Shown one piece after another: positions 888 through 21,096 of a stretch of DNA of 21,776 bases. This stretch comes from Sphingobacteriales bacterium (GTDB lineage: Bacteria > Bacteroidota > Bacteroidia > Chitinophagales > Chitinophagaceae). The stretch lies in NCBI GenBank assembly GCA_024640385.1, contig JAHEFC010000004.1:1-21776 (forward strand), written 5' to 3'. The first letter of the stretch is position 1, and the number at the start of each line of letters is the position of its first letter. A program made the position numbers and the translations under genes. Under the pieces are notes generated by a model that was not told the DNA's origin, searched no databases, and saw nothing but the letters and a program-made list of their open reading frames with translations.

Positions 888-1018
888 AGTGTGCTTGCCG
901 GATAGTGTGTTAGCCGGAGAATGCATTAGATAAGCAGGGAAGTGATCGGCTCGTCTATTCTCTTTCATATTTATCTGGTGCACTCTCCGGCTAACACATT
1001 AACCGGCAAGCACACTAA
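888..1018. repeat. Inverted repeat built from 8-base units (copy 1)
   Basis: Two arms of about 48 bases face each other across roughly 35 bases of unique sequence. Each arm is six 8-base units in the order GTGTGYTW, RCCGGWTA, RTGTGTTA, GCCGGAGA, RTGCAYYA, GATAARYA, read inward. The left arm starts at about 889; the right arm, read on the minus strand, starts at about 1015. I count about five mismatches between arms. The right end touches the TGA stop (1019-1021) of the serine hydrolase gene, and the left end lies 22 bases from the sugar transporter start. The same six-unit order recurs at 19731-19880. Unlike that copy, this core has no obvious terminator hairpin. Confidence 0.85.
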
Positions 1019-2680
1019 TCAGATTTTCCTGAATTTCAAATGAAGCACCCTTCCGTTATTCACTTCAAAGCCCGTCACTTCATTCTTTCGGCCTCTTTGC
1101 ATCAACAAGTTGTTCATCCACCAAATTCCACAGCTCATCTGATCATCACCAACAAGAATCAACCGCGCATCGCTGTACTTGGGATTTGCCAGGAATAGCT
1201 GATGGTCTTTCAATATAATACTATAACTGCATTCCAGTTCATCACTGTAGTAGGTGCCTGTATACTTTTTAAGCTCATCATCCGAATACAGTTTCCCCGG
1301 TTGAAATTTCTTAAACCGAAAATCACCACCTGGGGTGAATACATTGATCAGTGTGTCTTTCCCCTGGACCTTTGATACCATTCTTCTTGCAGGATCAGTA
1401 AGATCCGCCAGGGTATCTTTGGAGTAACTGGCCAATACCCTGAAATTATTATTGACAATATAAGTAAGCCTGCCGGTAAGCCAGTTGAACTGGGCCCGCA
1501 TTCCTTCATCCGTAATGTAATTCCCCGATAAGACCTTCCATCGGGAAGAATCCGTAAGTAATGTTTTTGAACTGTCAATTTTACTCGCTGTAGTTACTGC
1601 CGAGCTGGTATCCTTTATGAAAAGATCTGCCAGTGCATAGGTTCTTTCACTTGAATTGAATTCACCGAAATTGCTGAATACAAGGAAGCCCATTTTCAGG
1701 TCGGGGAATACAGACAAATAAGTTCTGAAACCCGCGTCGGAACCGCCATGGGAGTATTGCCGCCATCCTTTATAGGTATTTGAAACGATGCCAAGCGCGT
1801 AGTCAGTTTCCCTGCCGGAATTGAGTACCCCGTTTTTTGTGAGTTCTTCAATATCTTTTTGATCGCCCGCCACCGTATGATAATAATTCATCACCCATTT
1901 ACTCAGATCAGGGATATTGGTGAACAGGCTGGTAGCGCCGGCGTTGGAATAACTCAAAATACTATTGGCATAACTTACTCCGCGACGGCTGTAAGAATAG
2001 GCCCTGTTTTTTTCGATCTCTGTATAGTCGTCGTGAAAATGTGTATTGTTCATCGCCAGGGGTTTGAATATCGCAGAATCCGTAAACTGTCTCAGTGTTT
2101 TACCCGTGACCGCCTTTACGATCTCGGCACACAGGGTATATCCACTGTTGCAATAGAGATAACGGTCCCCGGGTTTGAAATTCAGCTCCCGTTGTTTACT
2201 TAGTAATTTGATGATATGCTCCTGGGTAATCACGTCATCCAGCCTGGTGCCTGAAATGGCGAGAAGCTGCCACTGGTCCCTGATCCCGCTGGTGTGATTC
2301 AGCAAATGACGGATGGTGATCTTTTCCTTCATATCCGGAAACCAGGTCAGGTATTTCCTGATGTCATCATCCAGCCTAAGCCGGCCCTGTTTCTCCAGCA
2401 ATACCAATGCATACCCTGTAAATTCCTTGGATACAGAGGCCATATGATAAATGGTCTCCGGACCATTGGGAATATTGTATTCCAGGTTGGCCATGCCATA
2501 TCCTTTGGCAAATACCAGGGAATCCCCCTGTATGATACCAATGGTACAGCCGGGACCGTACTTATTGTCCCACCTCGAAAAAAGCTGATCGATCTTATGC
2601 ACCATGGAATCAGGAAAAGCCTGGGGGAAAGCCTGGACTCCACTAATGATAAAGGCAATACATGCTATGATCTTTTTCAT
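1019..2680 (-). CDS. Exported class C beta-lactamase-fold serine hydrolase
   Basis: This is a 553-residue protein with an N-terminal signal peptide (cleavage expected near residues 16-20), so it acts in the periplasm or at the cell surface. The beta-lactamase/penicillin-binding fold (PF00144) covers about residues 28-365. The three catalytic motifs are visible: S82-V-S-K85 (nucleophile and general base), Y176-C-N178, and H311-G-G313 in the position of KTG. The remaining 180 or so residues form an extra C-terminal domain, as in many esterase or D-aminopeptidase-like members. In this family the reaction is acyl-serine hydrolysis of peptides, esters or beta-lactams, and the substrate cannot be predicted here. 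The HGG third motif argues for an esterase or peptidase rather than a true AmpC. The gene lies 49 bases downstream of the hipA-like gene on the same strand. Its stop codon abuts the repeat at 888-1018. Confidence 0.88.
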   Translation of the reverse strand: MKKIIACIAFIISGVQAFPQAFPDSMVHKIDQLFSRWDNKYGPGCTIGIIQGDSLVFAKGYGMANLEYNIPNGPETIYHMASVSKEFTGYALVLLEKQGRLRLDDDIRKYLTWFPDMKEKITIRHLLNHTSGIRDQWQLLAISGTRLDDVITQEHIIKLLSKQRELNFKPGDRYLYCNSGYTLCAEIVKAVTGKTLRQFTDSAIFKPLAMNNTHFHDDYTEIEKNRAYSYSRRGVSYANSILSYSNAGATSLFTNIPDLSKWVMNYYHTVAGDQKDIEELTKNGVLNSGRETDYALGIVSNTYKGWRQYSHGGSDAGFRTYLSVFPDLKMGFLVFSNFGEFNSSERTYALADLFIKDTSSAVTTASKIDSSKTLLTDSSRWKVLSGNYITDEGMRAQFNWLTGRLTYIVNNNFRVLASYSKDTLADLTDPARRMVSKVQGKDTLINVFTPGGDFRFKKFQPGKLYSDDELKKYTGTYYSDELECSYSIILKDHQLFLANPKYSDARLILVGDDQMSCGIWWMNNLLMQRGRKNEVTGFEVNNGRVLHLKFRKI

Positions 2681-4039: not shown

Positions 4040-6097
4040 ATGAAATATATACTTGGTACGATACTGTGTATTGCAGTTGGGTTTCATTCTATTGCCCAGT
4101 TGAATTATGCTGCTGAAAAGGAGAAGATCTTCAAAAGAATGACCGAAAGGTCGATCAGTCCGGCATTTGATTCATATGTAGCACATTTCTACAATCAAAC
4201 ATGTGATTCACTGGTGCAGTCAAAACTGGTGATCGATGGCGACCCGATAGAAACCATATTGATCCGGTTGTTCGGGAATACCAACATGGAACTTGACAGG
4301 AGAAAAATATCGAAGTTGCGGGTACCGGCTGTCAATACATTTTTCATTGAGTTATTAAACACCTACAAAAAAGAATCTATCGTACCAATATTGAGAACAG
4401 CGGGACTCAATCAATCCAGGATTCTTGCCAATGCATTTATAGGGCTCCCAATCGGAGACACCATTGCAAGAGCTGTGACGCTGAGGGAAATGGTGATCAA
4501 CACCCGCATTGTTCCCCAGAAAATCTACGACCCCCAGTACAGCAGGTTTGTAGATACAGTTATGCATTATTTTGTAAATGAAGATCCCGAACGTTTCATA
4601 GCAGAGTTGCAGAACCCTGAAATGCAGAAGATCGCCGATGCTTCCACTAAAACTTATGTCAAGGCGGCAGCCACTATAAAGGGTCAGAAAAATCTGAACA
4701 AACTGATCCCTTTTGGCGTGGCGATCTACGAAAACCGTATTACCATTGATTCTGTGATGCAGCTTGCGGGTACTCCGGCCAAATATATTAAAGCCTATAC
4801 CAATGAAGTGATAAGACTAAGGACTAGCGAAGACCCCACGGTTAAGGCTTATATGTATGGTTACTTTGAGTACACACATAAAGAAATTGCAAAAATGTTC
4901 ATTGAGCCGATCAATCAGTTACATGAATCGGCAGAAAAAGAACGTTTTTATGTACTCAGCGGGTTAAGTGCACAGGATCTTTATTTCATTATCCTTGGCG
5001 GTGAATCTGTGTTTTACACATCAAGCTTTATTTACACCTTCAACCAGTTTCTGGCCAGAGTAGAAAAAGAGGGACTTGAGAATTTTTTTGAAAGGATAGG
5101 ATACTATCATTTCGGGAATTTCCTTTCTGTCTGCGGTGGATACGGCATGACGGGCAAACTGATCAGGAACATGAACGAAGAAAAGTTTGCGACCACATTC
5201 CTGAAATACATTGACAGGCATATCAATTCTTTACAAACTGATCAGGACCTGATCCTGCATGGCATGACCATTTCAGAGATCCTGTACGACATCAGGGATT
5301 TCAAAAAAGCCAAACAGGTAATTATCGACTCTGTCGATCGGAGAAAAGCCAGGGAACTTTATGCAGACCTGCTGATCCAACGTATGTACAACGGTTTTAA
5401 AGGGATCCTGAACGACAGCATCAGTGGAAAGTTAAAGGAGATAGAAGCCAAGTATGAAGTAATGCCGGTAGAAAGGCTTAAAAACCGCGACACGATAGTT
5501 CAGGTAGGATTATTTTATGACGATGAAGATGGCGTTACCTCATTTGGAAATTATCTAAATTTTTTACCGGCGAAAGAATGGACCCGGGAAGACAAGGGGA
5601 ATTATCTGGTTTTCCGGTCAAATAGCGGCAACCCGATGCTGATATACCTCAATAAAGTCAATACTTCAGTTGGTGATGCTGCTGCCCAGGACGAAATGAT
5701 GAAGGCCATTGAAGATGCTGGATTGAATATCACCTATTTTACACACAGGGGTCACAGCTACCACCTGCATAAGAGTATAAAACGACTTCCGGAATCAGCT
5801 GAACTGGTATACCTGGGTTCATGTGGCGGATATAATGAAGTGATGAAGGTATTCCAGAGCAATCCGGATGCGCAGATCATCTCCACCAGGAATATCGGCT
5901 CCAAATACATAAACGACCCGGTATTGAGCAAGATCAATAACCAGGCCGTTGCCAATAAGGATATCAATTGGGTCACGATGTGGTCTGATTTCAATAAGAG
6001 TTTCACAGCCAAGAACACTAAGGAGCTTTTCTCTGCTTATATCCCGCCAAATAAATATATCGGGATCATGTTTATCAGGGAGGTGTTTAATTTTTAA
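4040..6097 (+). CDS. Large exported protein of unknown function with possible caspase-like His/Cys pair
   Basis: A 685-residue protein with a signal peptide (about residues 1-19, ending SIAQ) and no later clear membrane segment, so probably periplasmic or secreted. I do not recognise the family. Residues 20-480 are mostly helical with many Lys, Glu and Tyr. The C-terminal 200 residues look like an alpha/beta domain. Within it, a hydrophobic strand ends in THRGHSYH (H569, H572). A short helix follows, then a second strand ending in VYLGSCGGY (C595). This is the arrangement of the catalytic His and Cys of clan CD (caspase/gingipain/CHAT-like) peptidases, although the 23-residue spacing is short for that clan. 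ISTRNIG at 614-620 could be the following strand. The gene stands alone, divergent from the hipB-like gene. Its stop is followed at once by heptamer repeats that can fold into a hairpin. The CDS is certain; the peptidase idea is tentative. Confidence 0.8.
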   Translation: MKYILGTILCIAVGFHSIAQLNYAAEKEKIFKRMTERSISPAFDSYVAHFYNQTCDSLVQSKLVIDGDPIETILIRLFGNTNMELDRRKISKLRVPAVNTFFIELLNTYKKESIVPILRTAGLNQSRILANAFIGLPIGDTIARAVTLREMVINTRIVPQKIYDPQYSRFVDTVMHYFVNEDPERFIAELQNPEMQKIADASTKTYVKAAATIKGQKNLNKLIPFGVAIYENRITIDSVMQLAGTPAKYIKAYTNEVIRLRTSEDPTVKAYMYGYFEYTHKEIAKMFIEPINQLHESAEKERFYVLSGLSAQDLYFIILGGESVFYTSSFIYTFNQFLARVEKEGLENFFERIGYYHFGNFLSVCGGYGMTGKLIRNMNEEKFATTFLKYIDRHINSLQTDQDLILHGMTISEILYDIRDFKKAKQVIIDSVDRRKARELYADLLIQRMYNGFKGILNDSISGKLKEIEAKYEVMPVERLKNRDTIVQVGLFYDDEDGVTSFGNYLNFLPAKEWTREDKGNYLVFRSNSGNPMLIYLNKVNTSVGDAAAQDEMMKAIEDAGLNITYFTHRGHSYHLHKSIKRLPESAELVYLGSCGGYNEVMKVFQSNPDAQIISTRNIGSKYINDPVLSKINNQAVANKDINWVTMWSDFNKSFTAKNTKELFSAYIPPNKYIGIMFIREVFNF

Positions 6098-6166
6098 TTC
6101 CGAATTGTGTATTCCGTATTCCGTATTGAATGATAATCAGGAATACGGCATTCGGAATCCGGAATG
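6097..6166. repeat. ATTCCGT heptamer repeat with inverted arms after a stop codon
   Basis: Directly after the TAA at 6095-6097 come near-exact 7-base units related to ATTCCGT. The series turns round at about 6131-6139 and continues as the complement to 6166. A perfect 9-base stem (CCGTATTCC at 6114-6122 with GGAATACGG at 6140-6148) results. It could work as a transcript end or stabiliser for the preceding gene, but there is no T-run. Confidence 0.75.
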
Positions 6167-6208
6167 TACATGTAACAGTTAAATGACTCTTTCGGCAGTC
6201 GTTTTTTC

Positions 6209-6216
6209 TACCTTTG
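6209..6216 (+). promoter_or_regulatory. Bacteroidota -7 element of the gene at 6265
   Basis: TACCTTTG matches TAnnTTTG exactly and lies 48 bases upstream of the start codon at 6265. I found no convincing -33 TTTG at the usual distance, so this is a partial promoter match. Confidence 0.45.
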
Positions 6217-6264
6217 ACCACCATTTCAATTTTTAGTAAAACAACCATTTAAATAACAAAGACC

Positions 6265-6762
6265 ATGAAAAAAGTAGTGTTAGCAGTTTTATTTGTAATG
6301 TTCGCATTTGCCGGTATGGCCCAGTCCAATAAGGACGACCTGCAGATACTCCAGGCCACTTTCGGCAAGGAAAAAGCAGAATTGGTGAAAGCCTATATGA
6401 AGATCCCGGCTGAACAGGATGCGGCATTCTGGAGCCTGTACGATAAATATGAGGAAGAACGCAGGGCACTTGGAAAAGAAAAAGCAGTATTGATCGAGGA
6501 GTATGCAAATGCGTACGAGACACTGGATGACAAAAAAGCTGCTGACCTCATGAACAAAAAACTTAAACTTACAGACAGCTACACAAAAATGCAGAAGAAG
6601 TATTTCGACAGCTTTGCCAAGCAATTCGGCGGACGTCAGGCTGCTAAATTCTTCCAGCTGGAAGACTACCTGGAAAACATCATCAGGCTGGGCATCCAGG
6701 AATCAATTCCTTTTATAGATGAGCTGGACAAATCCAAGCTTCCTGAAGCAACTAAGCAATAA
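6265..6762 (+). CDS. Small helical periplasmic protein, Spy/CpxP-like in character
   Basis: A 165-residue protein with a signal peptide (residues 1-19, ending GMAQ). The mature part is almost entirely charged alpha-helix, rich in Lys, Glu, Ala and Leu. It contains FWSLYDKYEEERRALGKEK at about 52-70 and ends in KKYFDSFAKQFGGRQAAKFFQLEDYL. The pattern of a W/F-x-x-Y-x-x-Y helix followed by a long hairpin helix resembles periplasmic adaptor proteins such as Spy/CpxP. There is no plain LTxxQ motif, so this is resemblance and not an assignment. The gene is 19 bases upstream of an outer-membrane barrel gene on the same strand and is probably cotranscribed with it. A role in envelope homeostasis or as a chaperone for the neighbour is possible but unproven. 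Confidence 0.75.
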   Translation: MKKVVLAVLFVMFAFAGMAQSNKDDLQILQATFGKEKAELVKAYMKIPAEQDAAFWSLYDKYEEERRALGKEKAVLIEEYANAYETLDDKKAADLMNKKLKLTDSYTKMQKKYFDSFAKQFGGRQAAKFFQLEDYLENIIRLGIQESIPFIDELDKSKLPEATKQ

Positions 6763-6781
6763 ATTGATCAAGCATTTAACT

Positions 6782-7411
6782 ATGAAAAAAATTACAGCAA
6801 TCATTGCCTTGGTACTATTGGTATCAAGTGCAAACGCACAGGAACGTGGAACAATATCGCTGAATGCTTATGGCGGTTACACTTTCATGGACAGGGTCAG
6901 GTTTGATGCTGCATATGCAGATGTTCAGGCTGGATTTCAGTGGGGTGCCGGCCTGGAGTATTTCCCATCCAGGGACAACTCTATAGAGCTCAAATATCAA
7001 AGGATGGGCACAGATTTCCCCGTCTACAGGCCCAATGGTCAACAGATCAATAAAGGGTTTGAGAGTGGTGCGGTTAATTTTATCACTCTGGGTGGTAACC
7101 ACTATTTCTCCGGTGCGGTAAACGATGCCAAGATCATTCCATTCATTGGCGGTGCCATGGGTGTTGGTATTTTGGATGGCCCGGAAAATTCAACCACAAA
7201 ATTCGGATGGGATGCACAGGTAGGTATCAAGATCCCGACTAAATCTGTTGCATCATTCAAACTCAGGGCATATATCCAGTCAGTCACCTCAACTTTTGGT
7301 ACTGATTTCTGGTATTACCCGGGATGGGGAACTTATGCAGTTCCTGACTACGTGACCATGTTCCAATTCGGTCTCGGAGGAACAGTTACATTCGATTTTA
7401 AGAAAAAATAA
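6782..7411 (+). CDS. Small outer-membrane beta-barrel protein
   Basis: A 209-residue protein whose ATG at 6782 directly begins a good signal peptide (MKKITAIIALVLLVSSANAQ). An in-frame upstream ATG at 6719 lies inside the previous gene and is not preferred. The mature part consists of alternating polar and hydrophobic strands rich in Gly and aromatic residues (ISLNAYGGYTF, FQWGAGLEYF, IIPFIGGAMGVGI, VTMFQFGLGGTVTFDF). This matches an 8-stranded outer-membrane barrel of the OmpA/OmpW-like, 'outer membrane beta-barrel domain' kind. Function is unknown. It is the second gene of a likely two-gene operon with the helical periplasmic protein and is followed by a strong terminator. Confidence 0.78.
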   Translation: MKKITAIIALVLLVSSANAQERGTISLNAYGGYTFMDRVRFDAAYADVQAGFQWGAGLEYFPSRDNSIELKYQRMGTDFPVYRPNGQQINKGFESGAVNFITLGGNHYFSGAVNDAKIIPFIGGAMGVGILDGPENSTTKFGWDAQVGIKIPTKSVASFKLRAYIQSVTSTFGTDFWYYPGWGTYAVPDYVTMFQFGLGGTVTFDFKKK

Positions 7412-7443
7412 ATAACACGCTCTGATTACTTGCCAGTAAAAAT

Positions 7444-7480
7444 AAAACGGCAGTTACCATTTGGTAGCTGCCGTTTTTAT
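7444..7480. terminator. Rho-independent terminator between convergent genes
   Basis: A 15-base stem (AAAACGGCAGTTACC with GGTAGCTGCCGTTTT, one G-T pair) closes a 4-base loop and is followed by TTTTTAT. The A-run on the other side makes it usable from both strands. It ends the 6265-7411 unit and may also stop minus-strand transcripts from the amidohydrolase gene. Confidence 0.9.
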
Positions 7481-7523
7481 TTACCGACTCAAAACTGTTC
7501 TAATATCTACTTTCGCTGTTCTT

Positions 7524-7555
7524 CTGCAACCTGCAACCCGCCACCTGCAACCTGC
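7524..7555 (-). repeat. GCAGGTT heptamer tandem repeat after a stop codon
   Basis: On the minus strand the TAA stop of the amidohydrolase (7558-7556) is followed immediately by about four and a half 7-base units (GCAGGTT, GCAGGTG, GCGGGTT, GCAGGTT, GCAG). The unit is the same as at 8759-8797. Confidence 0.8.
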
Positions 7556-8728
7556 TTACCTCGCCGTCCCTGGCCCCGAAACAGGCGTGGGTGCCGGTAT
7601 CTTATTCGGTTCATTCACATGGAGCCTTTCCCAATCACGCACCTTGACCTTTGCCGCATCAAACAGGCGTTCGTAATTTCCTTTCAGTAATTTCTGCCTG
7701 GCATCCGGCGTAAGTTTTGCCAGTAATGGCTGATACATATCCATGATCTTGAGGTATGACTTCTGATCTGGTGGAGCCACTTCATCAGTCCCCATCAGAA
7801 ACCGATCTGGGAATTTATTGATCAGTCCCGCCATTTTTTCCACGGCCTCGGGCGATGAAGTGATATACTTGGCGGTTTCTGTCCACGACAGATCTATATT
7901 AACATGATTTACTTCAGGATTAACCAAGGCTTTTTCGAGCATGCCGATCTGATCAGTAACCGGACGAACTATCCTGCCTAAGCCACAATGTGCCCAGATG
8001 ATAGATGTTTTTGGATGGCGTTTCATTAATGCAGAAAACTGCAGAAGATCCCAGTTATCCTGTCCGTCTTTCGGGAAAGGCATATTGATATCATTATGCA
8101 GGATCACCAGCAATCCGGACTCCGCACAGAAGTCAAGGATCTTGTCCAGTGCCGGATTGTTCAGGGTGGCAACTGGTCCTGCAACTTTTGAAGAGACAAA
8201 TTCTTTATGAATGGAAAACTCGCCTATGCCAGTGAACACGCCGGGGAATGTTTTCAGTACCCGTTTAATATGATCCACTGCATACATATCAGCAGGATTG
8301 AACCCCGTGATCATGGGATCGAATCGGGCCTGGTTCTCTTTTGAAAGAGATTTGAACGCCATGGCAATGAATGCATCTGTAAAGGAGTAATAATACAAAG
8401 GGTCGTCACTGGCCAGGTAATAGGTAGGCGCAAAATCTCCGGAGTTGCCATAGGACCATAGTTGCTGAACGGGTATTCCGAATAGCGCAACTCTCCCCAC
8501 CCTGGTACCCATATTCTCCAGGCATTTGTTGATGTCTATGCCTTCCTGCACATAATTGGTCATATGGAAATGCGCGTCGTTCAGTTCATAAACAAGCTGC
8601 GGTTTCGGCGCTTCAGGAATTGCCGTTTTAGTATTTGCGACTTTTTTCTGCTGTGCATGAACATCACTGATCCCTGCAGTTATCAATACGATCAGCATTA
8701 CCGCAATAGAAATTGAATATTTTTTCAT
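7556..8728 (-). CDS. Exported metal-dependent amidohydrolase (Amidohydro_2 type)
   Basis: A 390-residue protein with a signal peptide (residues 1-25, ending VHAQ) and then a TIM-barrel amidohydrolase (PF04909-like) domain. Metal-site residues are visible in order: D51-A-H53-F-H55 at the first strand, E170 in GIGEFS, H211 in ILHND, H247 in WAHCGLGR, and D315 in LMGTDE. The family hydrolyses C-N or C-C bonds in small cyclic or carboxylated molecules; no substrate can be assigned. Export to the periplasm is notable, since many relatives are cytoplasmic. The C-terminal 20 residues are Pro-rich. It is the last gene of the minus-strand cluster that starts at 12534, 69 bases after a porin-like gene and separated from it by a heptamer repeat. 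Cotranscription suggests it processes something taken up through these porins. Confidence 0.85.
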   Translation of the reverse strand: MKKYSISIAVMLIVLITAGISDVHAQQKKVANTKTAIPEAPKPQLVYELNDAHFHMTNYVQEGIDINKCLENMGTRVGRVALFGIPVQQLWSYGNSGDFAPTYYLASDDPLYYYSFTDAFIAMAFKSLSKENQARFDPMITGFNPADMYAVDHIKRVLKTFPGVFTGIGEFSIHKEFVSSKVAGPVATLNNPALDKILDFCAESGLLVILHNDINMPFPKDGQDNWDLLQFSALMKRHPKTSIIWAHCGLGRIVRPVTDQIGMLEKALVNPEVNHVNIDLSWTETAKYITSSPEAVEKMAGLINKFPDRFLMGTDEVAPPDQKSYLKIMDMYQPLLAKLTPDARQKLLKGNYERLFDAAKVKVRDWERLHVNEPNKIPAPTPVSGPGTAR

Positions 8729-8758
8729 CTTGCTAATTTTACTTTAAACCATTTATTT

Positions 8759-8797
8759 CTGCAACCTGCTACCTGCCACCTGCTACCTGCTACCTGC
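8759..8797 (-). repeat. GCAGGTA heptamer tandem repeat after a stop codon
   Basis: On the minus strand the TAA stop (8800-8798) of the porin-like gene runs directly into more than five 7-base units of consensus GCAGGTA/GCAGGTT. They fill more than half of the 69-base gap to the amidohydrolase start. No hairpin is obvious. Confidence 0.82.
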
Positions 8798-10138
8798 TTA
8801 TAGAAGTATGTCCGTCCCGATCGTCAAAGTACTCCCCGTCTGTCCTCCAGTATACAACCCAAAAGTTCCCCCGGCAGAAGTTTTATACACCCGCATCAAC
8901 TGCATATTCAGTCTCCAGCTCCTGCTATTGACGGGATAGAAATTAAATCCGCCACCATATTCATGCGGATTCCGTTTAAATTCATCCCAGAAATAGGAAT
9001 TGATACCGTAGATGATCAGTCTCTTTGGCACCACTACTTGTGACACCTGCAGACTGTACCCCACATCTTTTATTGTACTGATCGGCACAGGACCATCGGC
9101 ATCAAAATTAGACAGGCGGCGGCCATAAAATTCAAGCTGGGCATTGAACCCTTTATACTTGACTCCAAGGTCAACCGACATCATATTATAATCAGCTTCA
9201 TTCACTGTAACACCATCTGCCAGGGCGCCTGTTTCAAAAAACAGTAGTCCATCGGTCATTCTCACCTGGGTATTATCAGGTGATGGTGTGCCGGTATTAT
9301 TAAATCTGTCTTCACGGCTGGTGACATAAGATATACCAAACCTCGTAGCTGCTTTTTTATGATATTCCAGGTCGCCAATGCCACCACGCGGTCCGAATTC
9401 CCCGGTAGTTGGCATCCACCAGATAGAAGCGCTTTTTGACAGGTCACGGGTTTCTTTGGATGCCTGGATACCCAATGTACTCAGGTTGTTTCCCAACATC
9501 AACCAGTAATTCAGTTTTGGAACAATCTCACCCTGGACAAAAAAGCCCTGTGTAAATCCGCCACGAAGTGATTCCTCTCCCATGGTACGGTCAGTGGAAG
9601 AATAGAAGGGGAAAGGCCCCTGCATCGATCGGACAGACAGATTGGGTGCAACACCAATGCCCAGTTTGAAATGCTTGTTAATTTTGTATTGAATATTGCC
9701 ATACACCAATGTCTGTTGTGTAGGCATGATGGTCCATACAGTAACAACATAAGTGAGCTTGGGGGTACCCACAAAGCCTGAAAACCATAACATGGCCCGG
9801 TGAAAATAGAAGTCGTTTCGTCCGGTTAGTTGCCGTTCTCGTCCGAGGTGGTCATACCAGGTTTGCTCACCAGGCATCTGGTTCAGGTACCTGGCCATAG
9901 CGTAGAGACTGAAATTCAGGCTGCCGTACCTGGTGCGAACAAGGTCAAAACCCCTACCAGGAGTGAACTCACCTGAGGCTATATTTTTATAGGTACTGTC
10001 AACCTGAGTCCCCCGCTTAAAATAGGAAATGTAATTCATTGATTCCTGGGTGCTATCCGGACCGGGAATAACAGTTTGTGCAAATACCGGAATAAAAAAG
10101 AAACAGGAAATGAATAACAAGGTGCTACCCCTCAACAT
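8798..10138 (-). CDS. Porin-like outer-membrane protein (OprO/OprP-like)
   Basis: A 446-residue protein with a signal peptide (residues 1-20, ending PVFAQ). The mature protein has many alternating amphipathic strands (YGSLNFSLYAMARYL, FYFHRAMLWFSGFVG, LTYVVTVWTIMPTQQ, FNAQLEFYGRRLSNF, WRLNMQLMRVYKTS). The alternation and the length of about 430 residues fit a 16-stranded porin of the phosphate-selective porin superfamily (OprO/OprP). No anion-selectivity motif can be judged by eye, so the transported molecule is unknown. It lies between an exported glutaminase and an exported amidohydrolase on the same strand. A hairpin at 10173-10203 separates it from the glutaminase and may reduce read-through. 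The stop codon is followed by a heptamer repeat. An uptake channel for the substrate of its neighbours is the simplest inference. Confidence 0.7.
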   Translation of the reverse strand: MLRGSTLLFISCFFFIPVFAQTVIPGPDSTQESMNYISYFKRGTQVDSTYKNIASGEFTPGRGFDLVRTRYGSLNFSLYAMARYLNQMPGEQTWYDHLGRERQLTGRNDFYFHRAMLWFSGFVGTPKLTYVVTVWTIMPTQQTLVYGNIQYKINKHFKLGIGVAPNLSVRSMQGPFPFYSSTDRTMGEESLRGGFTQGFFVQGEIVPKLNYWLMLGNNLSTLGIQASKETRDLSKSASIWWMPTTGEFGPRGGIGDLEYHKKAATRFGISYVTSREDRFNNTGTPSPDNTQVRMTDGLLFFETGALADGVTVNEADYNMMSVDLGVKYKGFNAQLEFYGRRLSNFDADGPVPISTIKDVGYSLQVSQVVVPKRLIIYGINSYFWDEFKRNPHEYGGGFNFYPVNSRSWRLNMQLMRVYKTSAGGTFGLYTGGQTGSTLTIGTDILL

Positions 10139-10172
10139 CGTCTATATATTTTACAATCTTCAAAATGAACAA

Positions 10173-10203
10173 AAATGTTGGCCACCTCAGGCAACCAACA
10201 TTT
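10173..10203 (-). terminator. Intra-cluster hairpin, terminator-like
   Basis: AAATGTTGG (10173-10181) pairs with CCAACATTT (10195-10203), with an inner GCC/GGC pair. On the minus strand the stem is followed by TTTTTG. It lies between the glutaminase stop and the start of the porin-like gene, so it could end or attenuate the upstream transcript. Confidence 0.6.
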
Positions 10204-10228
10204 ATATAAACAAGACGTACATGAGAAA

Positions 10229-11293
10229 CTACTGTTTGGGCTTGATCTGGTATGGATTCACGCCTAAGGCCTCTACGATATACCTGATCGAATAGATCGC
10301 TTTAACACTGTTGCCTGCAGGTGAAAGCGGAGGAGAGATCACTGCGATCCCGAACTTACCGGGAACAACAGCGATAATACCACCGCCAACTCCTGATTTA
10401 CCAGGTAAACCGGTGGCAAACAACCACTGGCCGGCATCATCATACAAACCCGCGGTTGCCATTACAGGCAGCACATATTTTACAGTTTCCGGCGACACCA
10501 CTTTCTTCTTGGTAACCGGATTGACACCACCGTTGGCCAGTGTACCAGCCATGATGGCCAGATCTTTTGCATTCACACTGATCGCACATTGCTTGGTATA
10601 GATATCGGTTGCTTCTACAGGATCCCAATACATACGGCCATATGCTTTCAACAGATGGGCAATGGCCTGGTTTCTCAGGTTATCTCCGGCTTCACTGATA
10701 TAAACAGGGATATCGAGATAGAGGTCCCTGCCTGCAAATTCACTATGTGTTGCCAGGATGTTTTTCCATTTGGCCGCAGAATCTGCCCCGCTTACCAGGC
10801 TGGTGGAAGCAATAGCACCCGGATTAACCAGCGGATTGATCTCCTTACCTTTTTGTAACTCAACAGCGATGATAGAGTTGAAACGCATACCAGTTGCGTC
10901 TACTCCTATTTTGTCCATAATGGCCTTGGGACCCTGTTCTTCGATCACCCTTGCCATGGTGAACACCTTGGAAATGGATTGAATGGAAACAGCGGATTGA
11001 AGATCGCCTGTGGTATAGATCTTACCATCCGTAGTCACAATGGCTATACCGAATATATTAGGATCAACCCTGGCGAGTTCTTTAATATAGTCGGCATTCT
11101 TGCCTTCTTTGATGTCCTTGAATTTAGCATAGGCTTCATCCATGGCCTTCTGAATGGCCACCGGATCCTGTGATGGGTCAACAACTACCGGGACCGGAGC
11201 TGTTTTCTTTGGCTTTTGTGCATAGACTACATGCACTGAAATATTCAGCGCCAACAGCATCAGCACAACCTTACATATTATTTTGGTACCCAT
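10229..11293 (-). CDS. glsA: Exported glutaminase A (EC 3.5.1.2)
   Basis: A 354-residue protein. Residues 1-25 form a signal peptide (VVYAQ) followed by a Pro/Val-rich linker. The glutaminase domain starts at about residue 48. The serine-lysine pair is seen in SIQSISKVF (S106, K109). NPLVNPGAI follows at 153-161, and the late GKSGVGGGI loop is also typical of the family. The enzyme converts L-glutamine to L-glutamate and ammonia. Well-studied bacterial forms (E. coli YbaS/YneH) are cytoplasmic, so a signal peptide points to a periplasmic role, for example scavenging nitrogen from outside glutamine. The start codon lies only 26 bases from the stop of the upstream DcaP-like porin gene, so the two are surely cotranscribed. 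The gap is filled by AAAAGTC heptamers and leaves no room for a Shine-Dalgarno site. The assignment is firm. Confidence 0.92.
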   Translation of the reverse strand: MGTKIICKVVLMLLALNISVHVVYAQKPKKTAPVPVVVDPSQDPVAIQKAMDEAYAKFKDIKEGKNADYIKELARVDPNIFGIAIVTTDGKIYTTGDLQSAVSIQSISKVFTMARVIEEQGPKAIMDKIGVDATGMRFNSIIAVELQKGKEINPLVNPGAIASTSLVSGADSAAKWKNILATHSEFAGRDLYLDIPVYISEAGDNLRNQAIAHLLKAYGRMYWDPVEATDIYTKQCAISVNAKDLAIMAGTLANGGVNPVTKKKVVSPETVKYVLPVMATAGLYDDAGQWLFATGLPGKSGVGGGIIAVVPGKFGIAVISPPLSPAGNSVKAIYSIRYIVEALGVNPYQIKPKQ

Positions 11294-11321
11294 ATTTTTG
11301 ACTTTTAACTTTTGACTTTTT
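11294..11321 (-). repeat. AAAAGTC heptamer repeat bridging stop and start codons
   Basis: On the minus strand the TAA at 11322-11320 merges into AAAAGTC, AAAAGTT, AAAAGTC, AAAAATA. The last unit leads straight into the ATG of the glutaminase at 11293. The whole intercistronic gap is repeat. Confidence 0.75.
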
Positions 11322-12534
11322 ACTTGGCCTCTTTGTAGAACATATGCGAGAAGCTGTACTTAAAAGAGAACTGCATCTTCAGAATGTCAGACGTGAAATC
11401 GTCCCTGAAATTGGTCCTCTTTCCATATTGCATCTCTACTCCCATCATCACTCTCTCAACAGGCGTATACAACAAATTCACAACGGCATAATCACCATGC
11501 TTGAATGCATCATCTGTTGAACCATCGGAATTATCAATTGATACGGACGAATAACCTATAGATGTACTGAGCTTGCTGCTCCAGTTGTGGTCTATGAATG
11601 CCACCAGGCCCTGCACCGGAAGCGCTACACCAAGCACGGGTTGCCTTGGATTGGAAAAATTATTTTTTATGCCGATATCGGCTGGAGCATCGTTCATATA
11701 GTTCTGAATACCTTCGCCAAATACATACTGCCCACGAAATACAGTGCTTTTGCCCAGGTTAAGATTGGTACTTAAATTCAAACCCCAGCCAATGGCGTCT
11801 CCGCTCAGGTCATAGGTGGGGCTGTTATTCTGATCTTCCCATTCGATCTTACGTAGGATACCGGCAAGCTCTACATAACCCCATTTCTTTCCTCCGTACC
11901 TGTACTCTGCAGAAAAATCGGGCAGCTTGAACCTGGGTTTTACGTTGTTCAGTTCAATACGATCGTCATAATTTCCCTGGTCTGCAGAAGCACCCGGACG
12001 CTCTAGGGCGAATGTCAACCTGGAATCACCCTGTATAGGCATATACCGGAACTGGACGTTCCTGAAGAATGCCATCCCCGAGGGACCCCAATATTCAACA
12101 GTATTTGGGAAAACGTCAATATCCATAAATGGACTCCAATACTGACCAGCACCGAATTTACCAAGCTCTCCATAGGCATGTCTCAAACGAATAGTTGTTT
12201 GACCTGCGTCAACACCCGTCCCAAACATTTCAAATTCAAAAATTGTTTTCAATTCACCGAGCGGGGTATTATGATATCCTTTAACACCAAATCTTGTTTG
12301 TCGAACGCTGAAATACGTATTGCCGTCAGTACCGTACTCATTTTTATATGCCGGCAGCTTTGTAGGCCGAACAACATCGAACCAGTCGGGGTGGATCTGG
12401 TTGAAATTGTACCCTGCATCCATCATGGCAAAGCCATAGATCTCCAGGCTTTTCTCCTTCTTAGGTTCCTCCTGCGCATTTGACCCCAGGCTGAAACAGA
12501 GCAGGATCAAACCCAATACATACCTTGACTTCAT
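11320..12534 (-). CDS. DcaP-like trimeric outer-membrane porin
   Basis: A 404-residue protein with a signal peptide (residues 1-20, ending GSNAQ). The mature start LEIYGFAMMDAGYNFNQIHPDWFDVVRPTK, then TYFSVRQTRFGVKGY, LGELKTIFEFEMFGTGVDAGQTT, LRHAYGELGKFGAGQYWSPFMDIDVFPNTVEYWGP and ALERPGASADQ are characteristic of the DcaP family of porins. The rest alternates as barrel strands and ends in an aromatic-rich strand (FSFKYSFSHMFY). DcaP channels known from Acinetobacter take up negatively charged small molecules such as dicarboxylates; this member may import similar acids or amides. It is the first gene of the minus-strand cluster. The gene upstream is divergent, and the 287-base region between them holds several palindromes that could regulate the cluster. 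Confidence 0.86.
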   Translation of the reverse strand: MKSRYVLGLILLCFSLGSNAQEEPKKEKSLEIYGFAMMDAGYNFNQIHPDWFDVVRPTKLPAYKNEYGTDGNTYFSVRQTRFGVKGYHNTPLGELKTIFEFEMFGTGVDAGQTTIRLRHAYGELGKFGAGQYWSPFMDIDVFPNTVEYWGPSGMAFFRNVQFRYMPIQGDSRLTFALERPGASADQGNYDDRIELNNVKPRFKLPDFSAEYRYGGKKWGYVELAGILRKIEWEDQNNSPTYDLSGDAIGWGLNLSTNLNLGKSTVFRGQYVFGEGIQNYMNDAPADIGIKNNFSNPRQPVLGVALPVQGLVAFIDHNWSSKLSTSIGYSSVSIDNSDGSTDDAFKHGDYAVVNLLYTPVERVMMGVEMQYGKRTNFRDDFTSDILKMQFSFKYSFSHMFYKEAK

Positions 12535-18614: not shown

Positions 18615-19730
18615 ATGAAGAAACAGTTCATTTTTACCATTTCGATCATTTTGATCTGTCTTGGCCAGTTGAGTGGTCAGGGACTTCGGCTGCCAAACAG
18701 CGTAGTCAACCAACCATCTATGGCTGGTCGTACGGTTGGAGTAACCGAAATCCAGCTCCGCTGGAATGCACCGGGAGTAAAAGGCCGGGAAGGGAAGATC
18801 TGGGGCACCGATGTAGCCCCATACGGTTTTGAACCACTCGGATTTGGATCTGACAAACCATCTCCCTGGCGGGCCGGAGCTGATGAAAGTACCACCATCA
18901 GCTTTTCAACAGATGTAACCATCAATGGCAAACCGCTTGCCGCCGGCAATTATGGATTCTTCATAGCGCTGTATCCCGATTCATCTGTATTGATCTTTAA
19001 TAAGAATACTAAAGGCTGGGGCGCATATTTCTATGACAGTAACCTGGATGTGCTTCGGGTAAAAACTGTTCAACAGAAAGATCAGAAAGAATCGGTTGAA
19101 CGACTGGTATATAATTTTTATAACCAGACCGCTAGCTCTATAGAGATCGCATTGGAATGGGAAAGATGGAAGATCCCGTTCACCGTGGGAGTTGATCTGA
19201 ACAACACGACGCTGGCAGAGATCAGGACCCAGCTCAGTGGCGCCCTGGGATTTGATCCCCCAAGCCTGCAAGCCGCAGCAAACTGGTGCCTGACCCATAA
19301 CCTGAATTATGAAGAAGGACTGCAATGGATCAACAGGGCTGTCAATCCTGGCCTCGGTGCATCGCAATCATTCCGGGCATTGAGCATTAAATCAGGGCTG
19401 TTGGAAAAACTGAACCGGAAGGAAGAAGCGGATCAGATCATGGCCACTGCTATCGAAAATGGAAGCGCAGTTGAACTGCATCAATACGGGCGGACCTTGC
19501 TGGCGCAAAAGAAAACTGCCGAAGCCATGAAAGTATTTGAGAAAAATTATACCAAATACAAAGGAGCCTGGCCTACTAATGTTGGCATGATGAGAGGCTA
19601 CTCTGCCATGGGCAACTATAAAAAAGCACTTGAACATGCGAAGCTTGCATTGCCACAGGCACCTGACGACGTGAACAAAAAATCACTGGAAGCGGCGATC
19701 AAAACATTATCCGAAGGCAAACCCCTGTAA
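18615..19730 (+). CDS. Exported DUF2911 protein with TPR-like C-terminus
   Basis: A 371-residue protein with a signal peptide (residues 1-22, ending LSGQ). Residues 25-180 carry the hallmarks of DUF2911 (PF11138): GRTVGVTEIQLRWNAPGVKGR, IWGTDVAPYG, PWRAGADESTTISFSTDVTINGKPLAAGNYGFF, VLIFNKNTKGWGAYFYDSNLDVLRV. Residues 215-365 form TPR-like helical pairs (LQWINRAVNPGLGASQSFRALSIKSGLLEKLNRKEEADQIM, TAEAMKVFEKNYTKYKG, NYKKALEHAKLALPQAP). The DUF2911 role is unknown; TPR parts usually bind proteins. It is monocistronic, divergent from the sigma-54 activator gene. Its TAA is followed at once by the second 8-base-unit inverted repeat, which encloses a terminator. The DUF2911 assignment is firm; the TPR call is good but not certain. 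Confidence 0.88.
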   Translation: MKKQFIFTISIILICLGQLSGQGLRLPNSVVNQPSMAGRTVGVTEIQLRWNAPGVKGREGKIWGTDVAPYGFEPLGFGSDKPSPWRAGADESTTISFSTDVTINGKPLAAGNYGFFIALYPDSSVLIFNKNTKGWGAYFYDSNLDVLRVKTVQQKDQKESVERLVYNFYNQTASSIEIALEWERWKIPFTVGVDLNNTTLAEIRTQLSGALGFDPPSLQAAANWCLTHNLNYEEGLQWINRAVNPGLGASQSFRALSIKSGLLEKLNRKEEADQIMATAIENGSAVELHQYGRTLLAQKKTAEAMKVFEKNYTKYKGAWPTNVGMMRGYSAMGNYKKALEHAKLALPQAPDDVNKKSLEAAIKTLSEGKPL

Positions 19731-19880
19731 GTGTGCTAACCGGTTAACAAGTTAGCCGGCTAGTGCATTAGATAAACAAGTTAGAGACAAATCATTTAAA
19801 AAAAGAGCTCCTGTTTCGGAGCTCTTTCTCGTTTATCTATTACATTCTCCGGCTAACACACTAACCGGTTAACACACTAA
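19731..19880. repeat. Inverted repeat built from 8-base units (copy 2), enclosing a terminator
   Basis: This copy has the same six-unit arm order as copy 1 at 888-1018 (GTGTGYTA, ACCGGTTA, then units ending in TTA, GCCGGNNA, RTGYAWTA, GATAAACR). The left arm is 19731-19778 and the right arm, on the minus strand, is about 19877-19830. Between the arms lies a terminator hairpin. The left end follows the TAA of the DUF2911 gene without a gap. The right end contains the TAG stop of the convergent DUF6799-like gene. Confidence 0.87.
19802..19830. terminator. Bidirectional rho-independent terminator
   Basis: AAAGAGCTCC (19802-19811) pairs perfectly with GGAGCTCTTT (19818-19827) around a TGTTTC loop. 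There is a T-rich tail on the plus strand and a run of seven A before the stem (T on the minus strand). It serves both convergent genes and sits exactly inside the inverted repeat. Confidence 0.9.
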
Positions 19881-20404
19881 TTCCTTCCTCCCTGCCTCTG
19901 CATTCTGCCCTGGTCCATATTGCGGGCCTGGTTCATTCCCTGTTGTTGATTCATGTTCTGTCCCTGACCCCTGTTTTGGTTCTTTGCCATATTCTGATCC
20001 TGGTGCATGGACTGCATTCTCTCTTTCTGCATTTGCTTATCAGACATCATTTTATTCTTATTGAATTTGTTCTGATTCTGATATTTATTCCCGGCCATAT
20101 CCAGGCATTGGCCATTTTTCATTTTTAACTGATCCTGGTTCTTTATCTGACAGGTACCGTCCGGGTTTACCATGGTTCCATTGTTCAGCCTGACCCTTTC
20201 TTTTACCTGTGTTTTTACACCAGCCTTATATTGGTATAATTTGCCATCTTCCATGATAAGATGATCTTCCTGGTGAATACGGTCACGTTTCTGTATTTTC
20301 TGATTGTCTTTGTCCTGGTTCATGGTCCGGTCCTGATCCTGACTCATGACCACTCCTCCACTGAAGAGCACTAAAGAGATCAGCATGATCATTCTGTTTT
20401 TCAT
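19877..20404 (-). CDS. Exported DUF6799-like protein with Met/Asn/Gln-rich tail
   Basis: The preferred start is the ATG at 20404, which begins a signal peptide (MKNRMIMLISLVLFSGGVVMSQ) and gives 175 residues. A longer frame from 20458 would place 18 odd residues before it. After a QDQDRT-type charged linker comes the core (HQEDHLIMEDGKLYQYKAGVKTQ, RLNNGTMVNPDGTCQIKNQDQLKMKNGQCLDMAGNKYQNQ), which resembles DUF6799. This is a small repeated beta unit with 'L-x-N-G-T-x-V-x-x-D-G' and 'L-K-x-G-x-C-x-D-x-x-G'. The last 55 residues are rich in Met, Asn and Gln (MQKERMQSMHQDQNM...). It is a paralogue of the gene at 20585-21052. Function is unknown; it is a periplasmic or surface protein, and the Met-rich tail could bind metal. 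The stop codon lies inside the 19731-19880 repeat. Confidence 0.78.
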   Translation of the reverse strand: MKNRMIMLISLVLFSGGVVMSQDQDRTMNQDKDNQKIQKRDRIHQEDHLIMEDGKLYQYKAGVKTQVKERVRLNNGTMVNPDGTCQIKNQDQLKMKNGQCLDMAGNKYQNQNKFNKNKMMSDKQMQKERMQSMHQDQNMAKNQNRGQGQNMNQQQGMNQARNMDQGRMQRQGGRN

Positions 20405-20531
20405 CGCATCATTTTTTTTAGTTATAGGATAGTTTAAGTTCAAATGCCAACTCATCAACTTCTACATTGGTTTGACTTATGGATCGCAATGAAGTTTAAT
20501 GCCGCATGATCAAAACAGGTCAGGAATATAA

Positions 20532-20584: not shown

Positions 20585-21052
20585 TCAGTTTTTCTTTTGC
20601 TGTTGTTGTTTTTGCTGTTGTTGTTGCTGCTGTTGCTGTTGCTGCTGTTGTTGCTGTTGCTGGGCTCTCTCCTGTTGCATTTGCTGTGTGGTCATCATCT
20701 GCCGCTGATTGAATTTCTCCTGGTTCTGATATTTGTTGCCGTTCATATCCAGGCACTGCCCGTTCTTCAACTGGTATTTCTCTTTGTTTTGCAGCTGGTA
20801 TGCACCATCAGGATTCACCATAGTGCCATTACTCAGTTTCAGCTGTGTTTTTGTCTGCGTTTTGGTACCTGCTTTTACCTGGTATAATTTACCATCCTGT
20901 AAAAGAATATACTCTTCCTGGTGTAACCGGTCCTGTGTCTTGAGCTGAGTCTTGTCCTGATCCTGCTGTTTAGTTCGATCCTGGTCCTGGGCCAATACAA
21001 CTGTTCCGAATACGAGGAACAAAGACGCCAGCGTTACAAATATTTTTTTCAT
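20585..21052 (-). CDS. Exported DUF6799-like paralogue with polyglutamine tail
   Basis: The start at 21052 begins MKKIFVTLASLFLVFGTVVLAQ, a clean signal peptide, and gives 155 residues. A longer frame from 21091 is not favoured because the -7 element at 21089-21096 lies there. The core (HQEEYILLQDGKLYQVKAGTKTQTK, LKLSNGTMVNPDGAYQLQNKEKYQLKNGQCLDMNGNKYQNQEKFNQRQMM) is clearly homologous to the gene at 19877-20404, including the QDQDRT linker. The tails differ: this one has 17 Gln in a row (20612-20662, mixed CAG/CAA codons), Lys, 4 Gln, then KKN. Mixed codons suggest selection for Gln and not simple slippage. Function is unknown; it is probably an envelope protein. Divergent from the gene at 21212. 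Confidence 0.8.
   Translation of the reverse strand: MKKIFVTLASLFLVFGTVVLAQDQDRTKQQDQDKTQLKTQDRLHQEEYILLQDGKLYQVKAGTKTQTKTQLKLSNGTMVNPDGAYQLQNKEKYQLKNGQCLDMNGNKYQNQEKFNQRQMMTTQQMQQERAQQQQQQQQQQQQQQQQQKQQQQKKN
20597..20662. repeat. CTG/TTG triplet tract encoding polyglutamine
   Basis: Twenty-two triplets, all CTG or TTG on the plus strand except one TTT, code for Q4-K-Q17 on the minus strand. Changes in triplet number would keep the reading frame. Confidence 0.85.
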
Positions 21053-21088
21053 TTGTCCGCATTTAGAGTGAAAGAAAATACTAACATC

Positions 21089-21096
21089 CAAAATTA
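21089..21096 (-). promoter_or_regulatory. Bacteroidota -7 element of the polyglutamine paralogue
   Basis: TAATTTTG on the minus strand matches TAnnTTTG and lies 37 bases upstream of the start at 21052. No convincing -33 element was found. It supports the shorter start. Confidence 0.45.

Follow-up and report, generated by a model that had tools for sequence, protein, structure and literature searches.

The window analyzed here, 21,776 nucleotides (nt) in length, is one entire contig (JAHEFC010000004.1) of a Sphingobacteriales bacterium, taken from a fragmented metagenome bin (GCA_024640385.1) of 4,084,565 bases in 585 contigs that is 94% complete. Several of its gene gaps contain tandem arrays of 7- or 8-base units that abut or run into the stop codon of a neighboring gene, and these arrays, with their counterparts elsewhere in the genome, are the subject of this analysis. 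An earlier note on the window had described 7-base arrays at stops in four gaps, and Tandem Repeats Finder detects them there, each abutting or overlapping a TAA (Table 1). Two particulars required correction: (i) the segment 6097-6166, taken for one array, comprises two arms, ATTCCGT units and their reverse complement, and (ii) the four gaps do not all hold unrelated units, as GCAGGTT and GCAGGTA form one family, leaving three. The two 8-base elements that had been placed under the same rule do reach stop codons; they are long hairpins, 867-1018 and 19731-19880, in which the period of 16 equals 2 x 8.

Table 1. Tandem-repeat arms in the window and their relation to neighboring genes or arms.
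Feature	Position	Strand	Relation to neighboring gene or arm
5' arm, ATTCCGT family	6097..6127	+	merges with TAA 6095-6097 of gene 4040-6097
3' arm	6135..6165	+	reverse complement of the 6097..6127 arm, with which it forms a hairpin
Lone GCAGGTT-family arm	7524..7555	-	abuts TAA 7556-7558 of amidohydrolase-family gene 7556-8728
Lone GCAGGTA/GCAGGTT arm	8759..8798	-	at TAA 8798-8800 of gene 8798-10138
Lone AAAAGTC-family arm	11296..11325	-	overlaps TAA 11320-11322 of DcaP-like gene 11320-12534
Left arm, 8-base-unit hairpin in gap 867-1018 (period 16)	888..918	.	from Tandem Repeats Finder and folding
Right arm, same hairpin	987..1018	.	ends at stop of gene 1019-2680 (-)
Left arm, second 8-base-unit hairpin	19731..19763 (limits by eye)	+	follows TAA of gene 18615-19730
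Right arm, second 8-base-unit hairpin, (CCGGCTAACACACTAA)2	19849..19880	.	reaches stop of gene 19877-20458 (-)

The first unit of the array at 6097 is degenerate, with the regular part beginning at 6109. Predicted folding energies are -25.0 kcal/mol for 6095-6170, -85.0 kcal/mol for 867-1020, and -67.1 kcal/mol for 19728-19880; between the arms of the last lies an ordinary terminator-like hairpin, and a similarly ordinary hairpin-plus-T-run at 7444-7479, also terminator-like, belongs to the facing plus-strand gene (both by eye). The AAAAGTC-family arm occupies almost all of the gap that separates the DcaP-like gene from the start codon (ATG) of the glutaminase gene (10229-11293). Pfam matches of the neighboring genes are all ordinary (amidohydrolase family, glutaminase, DcaP-like outer membrane protein, and DUF2911), 3 of the 8 proteins submitted having no match, and an Rfam search of the window returned nothing above gathering scores. 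A TTG/CTG-type repeat at 20597-20662, within predicted gene 20585-21091 on the minus strand, probably encodes a glutamine-rich stretch.

Genome-wide counts come from two samples of the assembly, with gene boundaries set by a hexamer-based caller: a first of 66 contigs with 508,747 non-N bases (15 of 81 sequences, all contigs shorter than 3 kb, were wholly N and were left out) and an enlarged one of 106 contigs with 817,158 bases (817 kb out of 4.08 Mb). The first sample contains 63 period-7 arrays of at least about 19 nt, vs 0.0 per run in five third-order Markov runs, and 55 of the 63 overlap predicted genes by less than 20%. Period 7 predominates (63 arrays), followed by periods 8 (20), 14 (12), 16 (11), and 21 (9), with 0-6 arrays at each other period. 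The arrays thereby have the properties of heptameric simple sequence repeats of the long simple sequence repeat (LSSR) or short tandemly repeated repetitive (STRR) type, i.e., tandem 7-base units that are over-represented and mostly intergenic. STRR sequences of heterocystous cyanobacteria are intergenic tandem heptamers with several families per genome. Across the whole assembly, the pattern GCAGGTNGCAGGTNGCAGG occurs at 181 places, vs 0 for the same pattern read backwards. The enlarged sample yielded 164 arrays, of which 137, with periods of 7, 8, or 14-16, lie in gene gaps, 23 are mostly genic, and 4 are at contig ends or unplaced; heptamer arrays entirely within predicted genes were noted at L080 9092-9165 and L108 16703-16747. 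A 15-base palindrome family accounting for 6 arrays is included in the placement set of 137 and in the list of 74 stop sites used below; its exclusion from the pairing, terminator, unit-length, gap-type, and per-family tests and from the TAG overlap split leaves 131 arrays.

Placement at stop codons carries the central finding. With each array put at random inside its own gap in 2000 trials, 24.5 of the 137 would be expected to fall within 6 nt of a stop; 59 do so, the highest count in any trial being 37. Starts are not favored (9 of 137 within 6 nt, 13.0 expected), 54 of 78 arrays in co-directional gaps are closer to the stop than to the start, and in gaps of 40-150 nt, a length range picked afterwards, an array is present in 24 of 57 convergent vs 5 of 47 divergent cases (p = 0.0004). 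Stop-anchored placement, constant period, and several unit types in one genome, as proposed in the earlier note, are thus beyond chance genome-wide. In the scan of stop distances that it called for, the pooled arrays are enriched at stops and are not equally common in genes or before starts; taken singly, three of six families behave in the same way, and the others, including AAAAGTC, do not reach significance. TAG is the codon at 36 of the 74 stops that have an array no more than 10 nt away, vs 144 of 669 stops in the sample; it makes up 20 of 30 stops in cases of overlap with the array and 15 of 43 where the array begins after the stop (p = 0.057). Arrays running into a stop thus often supply its final base.

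By family, the 131 arrays divide into GCAGGTT (42), AAAAGTC (19), AGAGAGTC (19), ATTCCGG (18), AATTGGCG (16), AGAGGCG (9), and 8 single others. Counts near a stop that no more than 1 of 2000 trials equalled are seen for GCAGGTT (23/42, 8.8 expected), AGAGAGTC (12/19, 5.4 expected), and ATTCCGG (7/18, 1.8 expected). AGAGGCG (4/9, 1.7 expected) and the single others (4/8, 1.8 expected) are singly not significant, and all families minus GCAGGTT give 35 of 89 near a stop vs 15.6 expected. Orientation is also biased: at AACCTGC-type period-7 stop sites, the unit reads as GCAGGTT away from the stop in 22 cases and in the opposite direction in 2, the latter being arrays between close convergent stops that are each counted the usual way too. 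Arrays beside one stop contain more G than C in a ratio of 56:8, vs 132:102 in array-free post-stop sequence, and are purine-rich at 51:8 vs 119:102 (p ~2e-6 for each). The G>C polarity is carried by GCAGGTT (23:0), AGAGAGTC (14:0), AGAGGCG (5:0), and AAAAGTC (4:1).

G-quadruplexes, as proposed for the Xanthomonas and Nostoc heptamers, would be in keeping with such polarity, which those repeats share (PMC4692102), and four G-tracts would explain a preference for four units. Units capable of forming this structure are, however, scarce here, as AGAGAGTC and AAAAGTC contain no GG run and GCAGGTT and ATTCCGG have tracts of only two G, yet the arrays of the two families without GG have medians of 4.25 and 4.43 units, respectively. 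That AGAGAGTC, devoid of G-tracts, is nevertheless stop-placed, with arrays of about four units, speaks against G-quadruplexes as a general cause, and we regard them as very improbable.

A second regularity is that arrays come in complementary pairs. A complementary partner lies within 130 nt for 86 of the 131 arrays, in 56 of 100 array-bearing gaps, vs 1 of 131 in a shuffled control. Neighboring arrays in one gap are spaced 0-32 nt apart in 30 of 31 cases with no common intervening sequence, and enriched 6- to 10-mers next to the arms revealed neither a conserved core nor a conserved loop, the remaining words being missed array copies. Arm length peaks at 30-32 nt for period 7 (44/92 arrays) and at 33-37 nt for period 8 (19/39). 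A constant number of units was rejected, since 7- and 8-mer arrays show no difference in nucleotide length (p = 0.28) and do differ in number of units (p = 0.002). The earlier picture of simple arrays stands as to placement; it missed that they are in many cases hairpin arms of genome-wide families. For 3' ends in convergent gaps, the median predicted fold per 100 nt is -42.9 kcal/mol with an array (38 ends) vs -27.5 kcal/mol without (54 ends). Canonical terminators accompany 5 of 57 array sites in tandem gaps and 5 of 46 in convergent ones, and occur at 21 of 152 and 9 of 72 sites without arrays, respectively, while congeners yielded few terminators; only 3 of the 10 at array sites overlap the array, and the stem followed by a T-run that defines an intrinsic terminator is not a property of the arrays.

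Comparison with relatives indicates that the repeat words are largely particular to this genome. Among 60 genomes (36 of the other 59 being congeners), GCAGGT and AGGCGA arrays were each found in its own genome only, and AAAAGT arrays in 10 including its own, with the backwards control similarly frequent in several. The idea of GCAGGTT as a special shared word was rejected, since it is carried by 7 of 348 genomes in the order, counting its own, vs 12 of 348 with the backwards control, which reaches 109 places in one genome (G301; unit confirmed); from these word counts, the choice of repeat word in the order looks arbitrary. Some congeners carry period-7 arrays of other words: 7 in 60 kb of G019 (4 of AACAACG), 7 in 21 kb of G033 (3 of ACTGCCT), 5 in 60 kb of G020, and 1 in an 11-kb stretch of G034 that was selected for carrying it. 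No period-7 or -8 array was found in the sampled parts of G016 (60 kb), G028 (40 kb), G031 (26 kb), or G005 (11 kb), and the sampled stretches of G029 are N. The sampled stretches of G019 and G033 contain 7 copies of the 9-base word GGAACAGCC or of its complement (L226 2845, 2886, 5598, 15055, and 17382; L241 4118 and 9143), of which 5 are no more than 1 nt away from a detected period-7 array; the units of these arrays differ.

In the congener G031, genes follow the same order as in window 7575-12474, at 75-79% identity, and in two of three aligned gaps its gene likewise ends with TAA at the matching place, as read from the alignment. At another locus, L273 2953-3046, a convergent gap holds a AGAGAGTC hairpin, and gene order there differs from that of G031 contig C313, the one change of order that came up for a possible role of arrays as rearrangement breakpoints. 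The state of the assembly, in 585 contigs at 94% completeness, raises the question of whether the arrays are artefacts of a fragmented bin; the window arrays are nonetheless flanked by genes whose G031 orthologues keep their order, and another array is identical in G034 within a stretch of 77% identity, which makes this scarcely credible.

Miniature mobile elements offer a different account, in which a transposase whose gene lies elsewhere would mobilize the arms as units, akin to repetitive extragenic palindromic (REP) sequences and their hairpin-forming doublets (REPINs) or to miniature inverted-repeat transposable elements (MITEs). The inverted arrangement and peaked length of the arms, the high copy number of each family, and the lack of copies at orthologous congener gaps would be compatible with this. 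In GCAGGTT arms with exactly four spacers, moreover, the second spacer is variable in 13 of 17 (permutation P = 0.0035, for a statistic chosen afterwards), a phase-specific pattern not seen in the two other families of the three tested, and this spacer pattern hints that arms may have been copied whole. Searches of the assembly point the other way: only 2 Y1 transposase genes were found (other transposase families were not searched), neither has a heptamer array around it in loci of 2.6 and 3.3 kb, as the pairing of REP sequences with REP-associated tyrosine transposases (RAYTs) would have it, and one is flanked instead by a different, 15-base palindrome. Outside the arms there is no conserved core or loop, and no target-site duplication was shown, although no systematic search for one was made. 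Transposase-driven movement is, in our estimation, distinctly unlikely. No reverse transcriptase (PF00078) that could serve as a template-copying source was found in the assembly. The 15-base palindromic repeat, TACCTCCAAGGTCCC, flanks the Y1 gene (open reading frame 1309-1884) at L286 1260-1294 and 1972-2033 and is also present at L035, L052, L073, L250, and L271, its core occurring 35 times in the 817-kb sample; this is a REP/RAYT-like arrangement in its own right.

Stop placement also appears in loci from other organisms. From at least 114 stretches matched via a GCAGGTT array, 80 loci were used, picked by unit and not by position and pooled across phyla; Chloroflexi, Lewinella relatives, Acidobacteria, cyanobacteria, Aequorivita, and more are among the matches listed, and GCAGGTT arrays are present in the cultured species Neolewinella persica and Niastella caeni. 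Genes were taken as long open reading frames, and 62 arrays in crude calls of this kind, arrays at locus edges, and gaps longer than 600 nt were set aside, leaving 87 arrays in usable gaps of 45 of the 80 loci. Arrays of the query unit lie within 6 nt of a stop in 13 of 43 cases vs 4.5 expected (near starts, 4 vs 4.2), and arrays of other units in 14 of 44 vs 5.2 expected (near starts, 4 vs 3.0). Beside one stop, G exceeds C at 13:2 in both sets against a background of 90:74, with purine-richness at 13:2 for the query unit and 9:5 for the others.

Several of these properties have precedents. According to PMC4692102, most downstream copies of the GGGAATC repeats of Xanthomonas and the GGGGA(C/T)T repeats of Nostoc are on the coding strand at 0-50 bp from the stop, stop-overlapping cases included, with few repeats between divergent genes; GGGAATC repeats, mostly of about four units, form 70-75 inverted pairs per genome, and 83% of them are common to two Xanthomonas species. 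Stop placement, which the earlier note had thought would set the repeats apart from known heptamers, is thus already on record for both genera, and the present arrays, being intergenic, near or overlapping stops on the coding strand, of about four units, and in inverted pairs, are a variant of the GGGAATC arrangement in that account. The combination of stop-near position, G-rich coding strand, and inverted pairs is found in all arrays pooled and singly in GCAGGTT and AGAGAGTC; ATTCCGG departs from it in G>C polarity, and AAAAGTC and AATTGGCG in stop preference. Unlike those systems, in which one G-tract unit was studied per species, this genome holds six 7-/8-base families, two of them without G-tracts, and a syntenic congener has no arrays.

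TAACTGA heptamers are described in PMC4679880 from marine Beggiatoaceae, Cyanobacteria, and some Bacteroidetes, some of the last adding other heptamers. They resemble the present arrays in that many intergenic arrays occur per genome; in the BOGUAY genome, however, they mostly lie just before starts (169 direct sets, one indirect), whereas ours follow stops, are often inverted, and show no excess upstream of starts. REP and REPIN sequences with their RAYTs (PMC3733652, PMC3116915, PMC2817692) share the character of dispersed extragenic palindromes and differ in that the arms here are tandem repeats, with no Y1 transposase linked to the heptamer families. Mrazek et al. (2007), as cited in PMC4679880 and PMC4692102, identified heptamers as the most abundant long simple sequence repeats, in keeping with the dominance of period 7 here, and polymerase slippage was proposed; peaked arm length and stop anchoring are left unexplained by slippage as cited. 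Judged by titles and abstract openings, searches of an open-access library brought up no account of several post-stop heptamer families in one genome, subscription papers lying mostly outside these searches. What is new is that unrelated families in one genome share stop placement, including AGAGAGTC without a G-tract, and that pooled loci of other phyla do so too.

Given the observed placement (pooled and in three families), arm length, pairing, family structure, and absence from a syntenic congener, the reading we favor, at a probability of roughly 0.4, is that the arrays constitute dispersed hairpin elements, built of short tandem repeats, that come to rest at gene 3' ends, with a predicted role there. 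A full element would consist of an arm of ~31-35 nt (four to five 7-/8-base units) starting from the stop, a short unconserved loop, and the reverse-complement arm, the first arm being, in most families, G-rich when read outward from the stop; lone arms would represent halves of the full element. A few families would become widespread inside one genome, with related species swapping in other words. In RNA, the arms may fold into a stem immediately past the stop codon. This stem would terminate or protect the transcript, 3'-end protection being among the roles suggested in the earlier note, or it would insulate facing genes; such use, together with the harmlessness of that position, would retain arms there. 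Placement, polarity, and hairpins are consistent with a 3'-end element of this kind.

A number of observations weigh against this. Two of the six families fail the stop test taken singly (AAAAGTC, 4/19 vs 2.3 expected; AATTGGCG, 4/16 vs 2.6 expected; neither significant), for which reason the explanation is held with less confidence, and G>C polarity is missing in ATTCCGG (3:4) and AATTGGCG (3:2). The convergent excess is gone in gaps of 150-400 nt (1/9 convergent vs 7/40 divergent), and 23 of the 137 arrays sit between divergent genes. No paired array is present in 44 of 100 array-bearing gaps, including three of the window's four. The two arms of one hairpin resemble each other more closely than, on average, they do the arms of other hairpins in only 8 of 22 cases for 7-mers and in 5 of 7 for 8-mers, by which compensatory evolution is not demonstrated, and the terminator counts with and without arrays give no sign of arrays replacing canonical terminators. 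In G019, G020, and G033 pooled, the 22 arrays with a period of 7 or 8 include only 4 that are within 6 nt of a stop and 2 that are equally close to a start, a count for which no expectation was computed and which does not establish the stop rule in these congeners. The syntenic G031 locus has no period-7 or -8 array, with the orthologous gaps diverged too far to reveal an empty site. One AAAAGTC arm is identical in G034 over 33 nt at the orthologous place, with differing non-coding flanks, which speaks for a 3'-end element; this case, however, was found by a search that demanded 20 matching bases, and the adjoining gene start is identical too.

Turnover, lone arms, weak covariation, the absence of T-runs, and stop-ignoring families are consistent with dispersal plus tolerance. 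Under such a neutral or selfish process, slippage and recombination between copies would spread the arrays, which would pile up behind stops as the least harmful place, where neither a codon nor a promoter is hit. We consider this a real possibility, if short of even odds. Genome-specific units and their absence from G031 would follow from it, as would the lack of preference for starts, the missing covariation between 7-mer arms, the families that ignore stops, and the frequency with which stop-overlapping arrays complete TAG, as if extending to the gene's tolerance. The preference for the first 6 nt after a stop nevertheless exceeds random placement in the same gap, and a narrow arm-length peak across unrelated families is not what free slippage predicts.

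A broader and rather doubtful reading would be that many bacteria share one class of such 3'-end elements, in which the word is arbitrary and can be swapped while period (7-8), arm (~31-35 nt), G-rich-first polarity, and stop position are fixed; a process or factor sensing geometry would make or keep it, with each lineage re-inventing the word. Several bacterial groups commonly carry heptamer arrays, which by PMC4692102 and PMC4679880 are still unexplained. Ultimately, unrelated words with one placement separate geometry from sequence, rendering G-quadruplexes unlikely as a general cause, and, should the arrays function where transcripts end, some two in five of the convergent 40- to 150-nt gaps of this genome would hold one.

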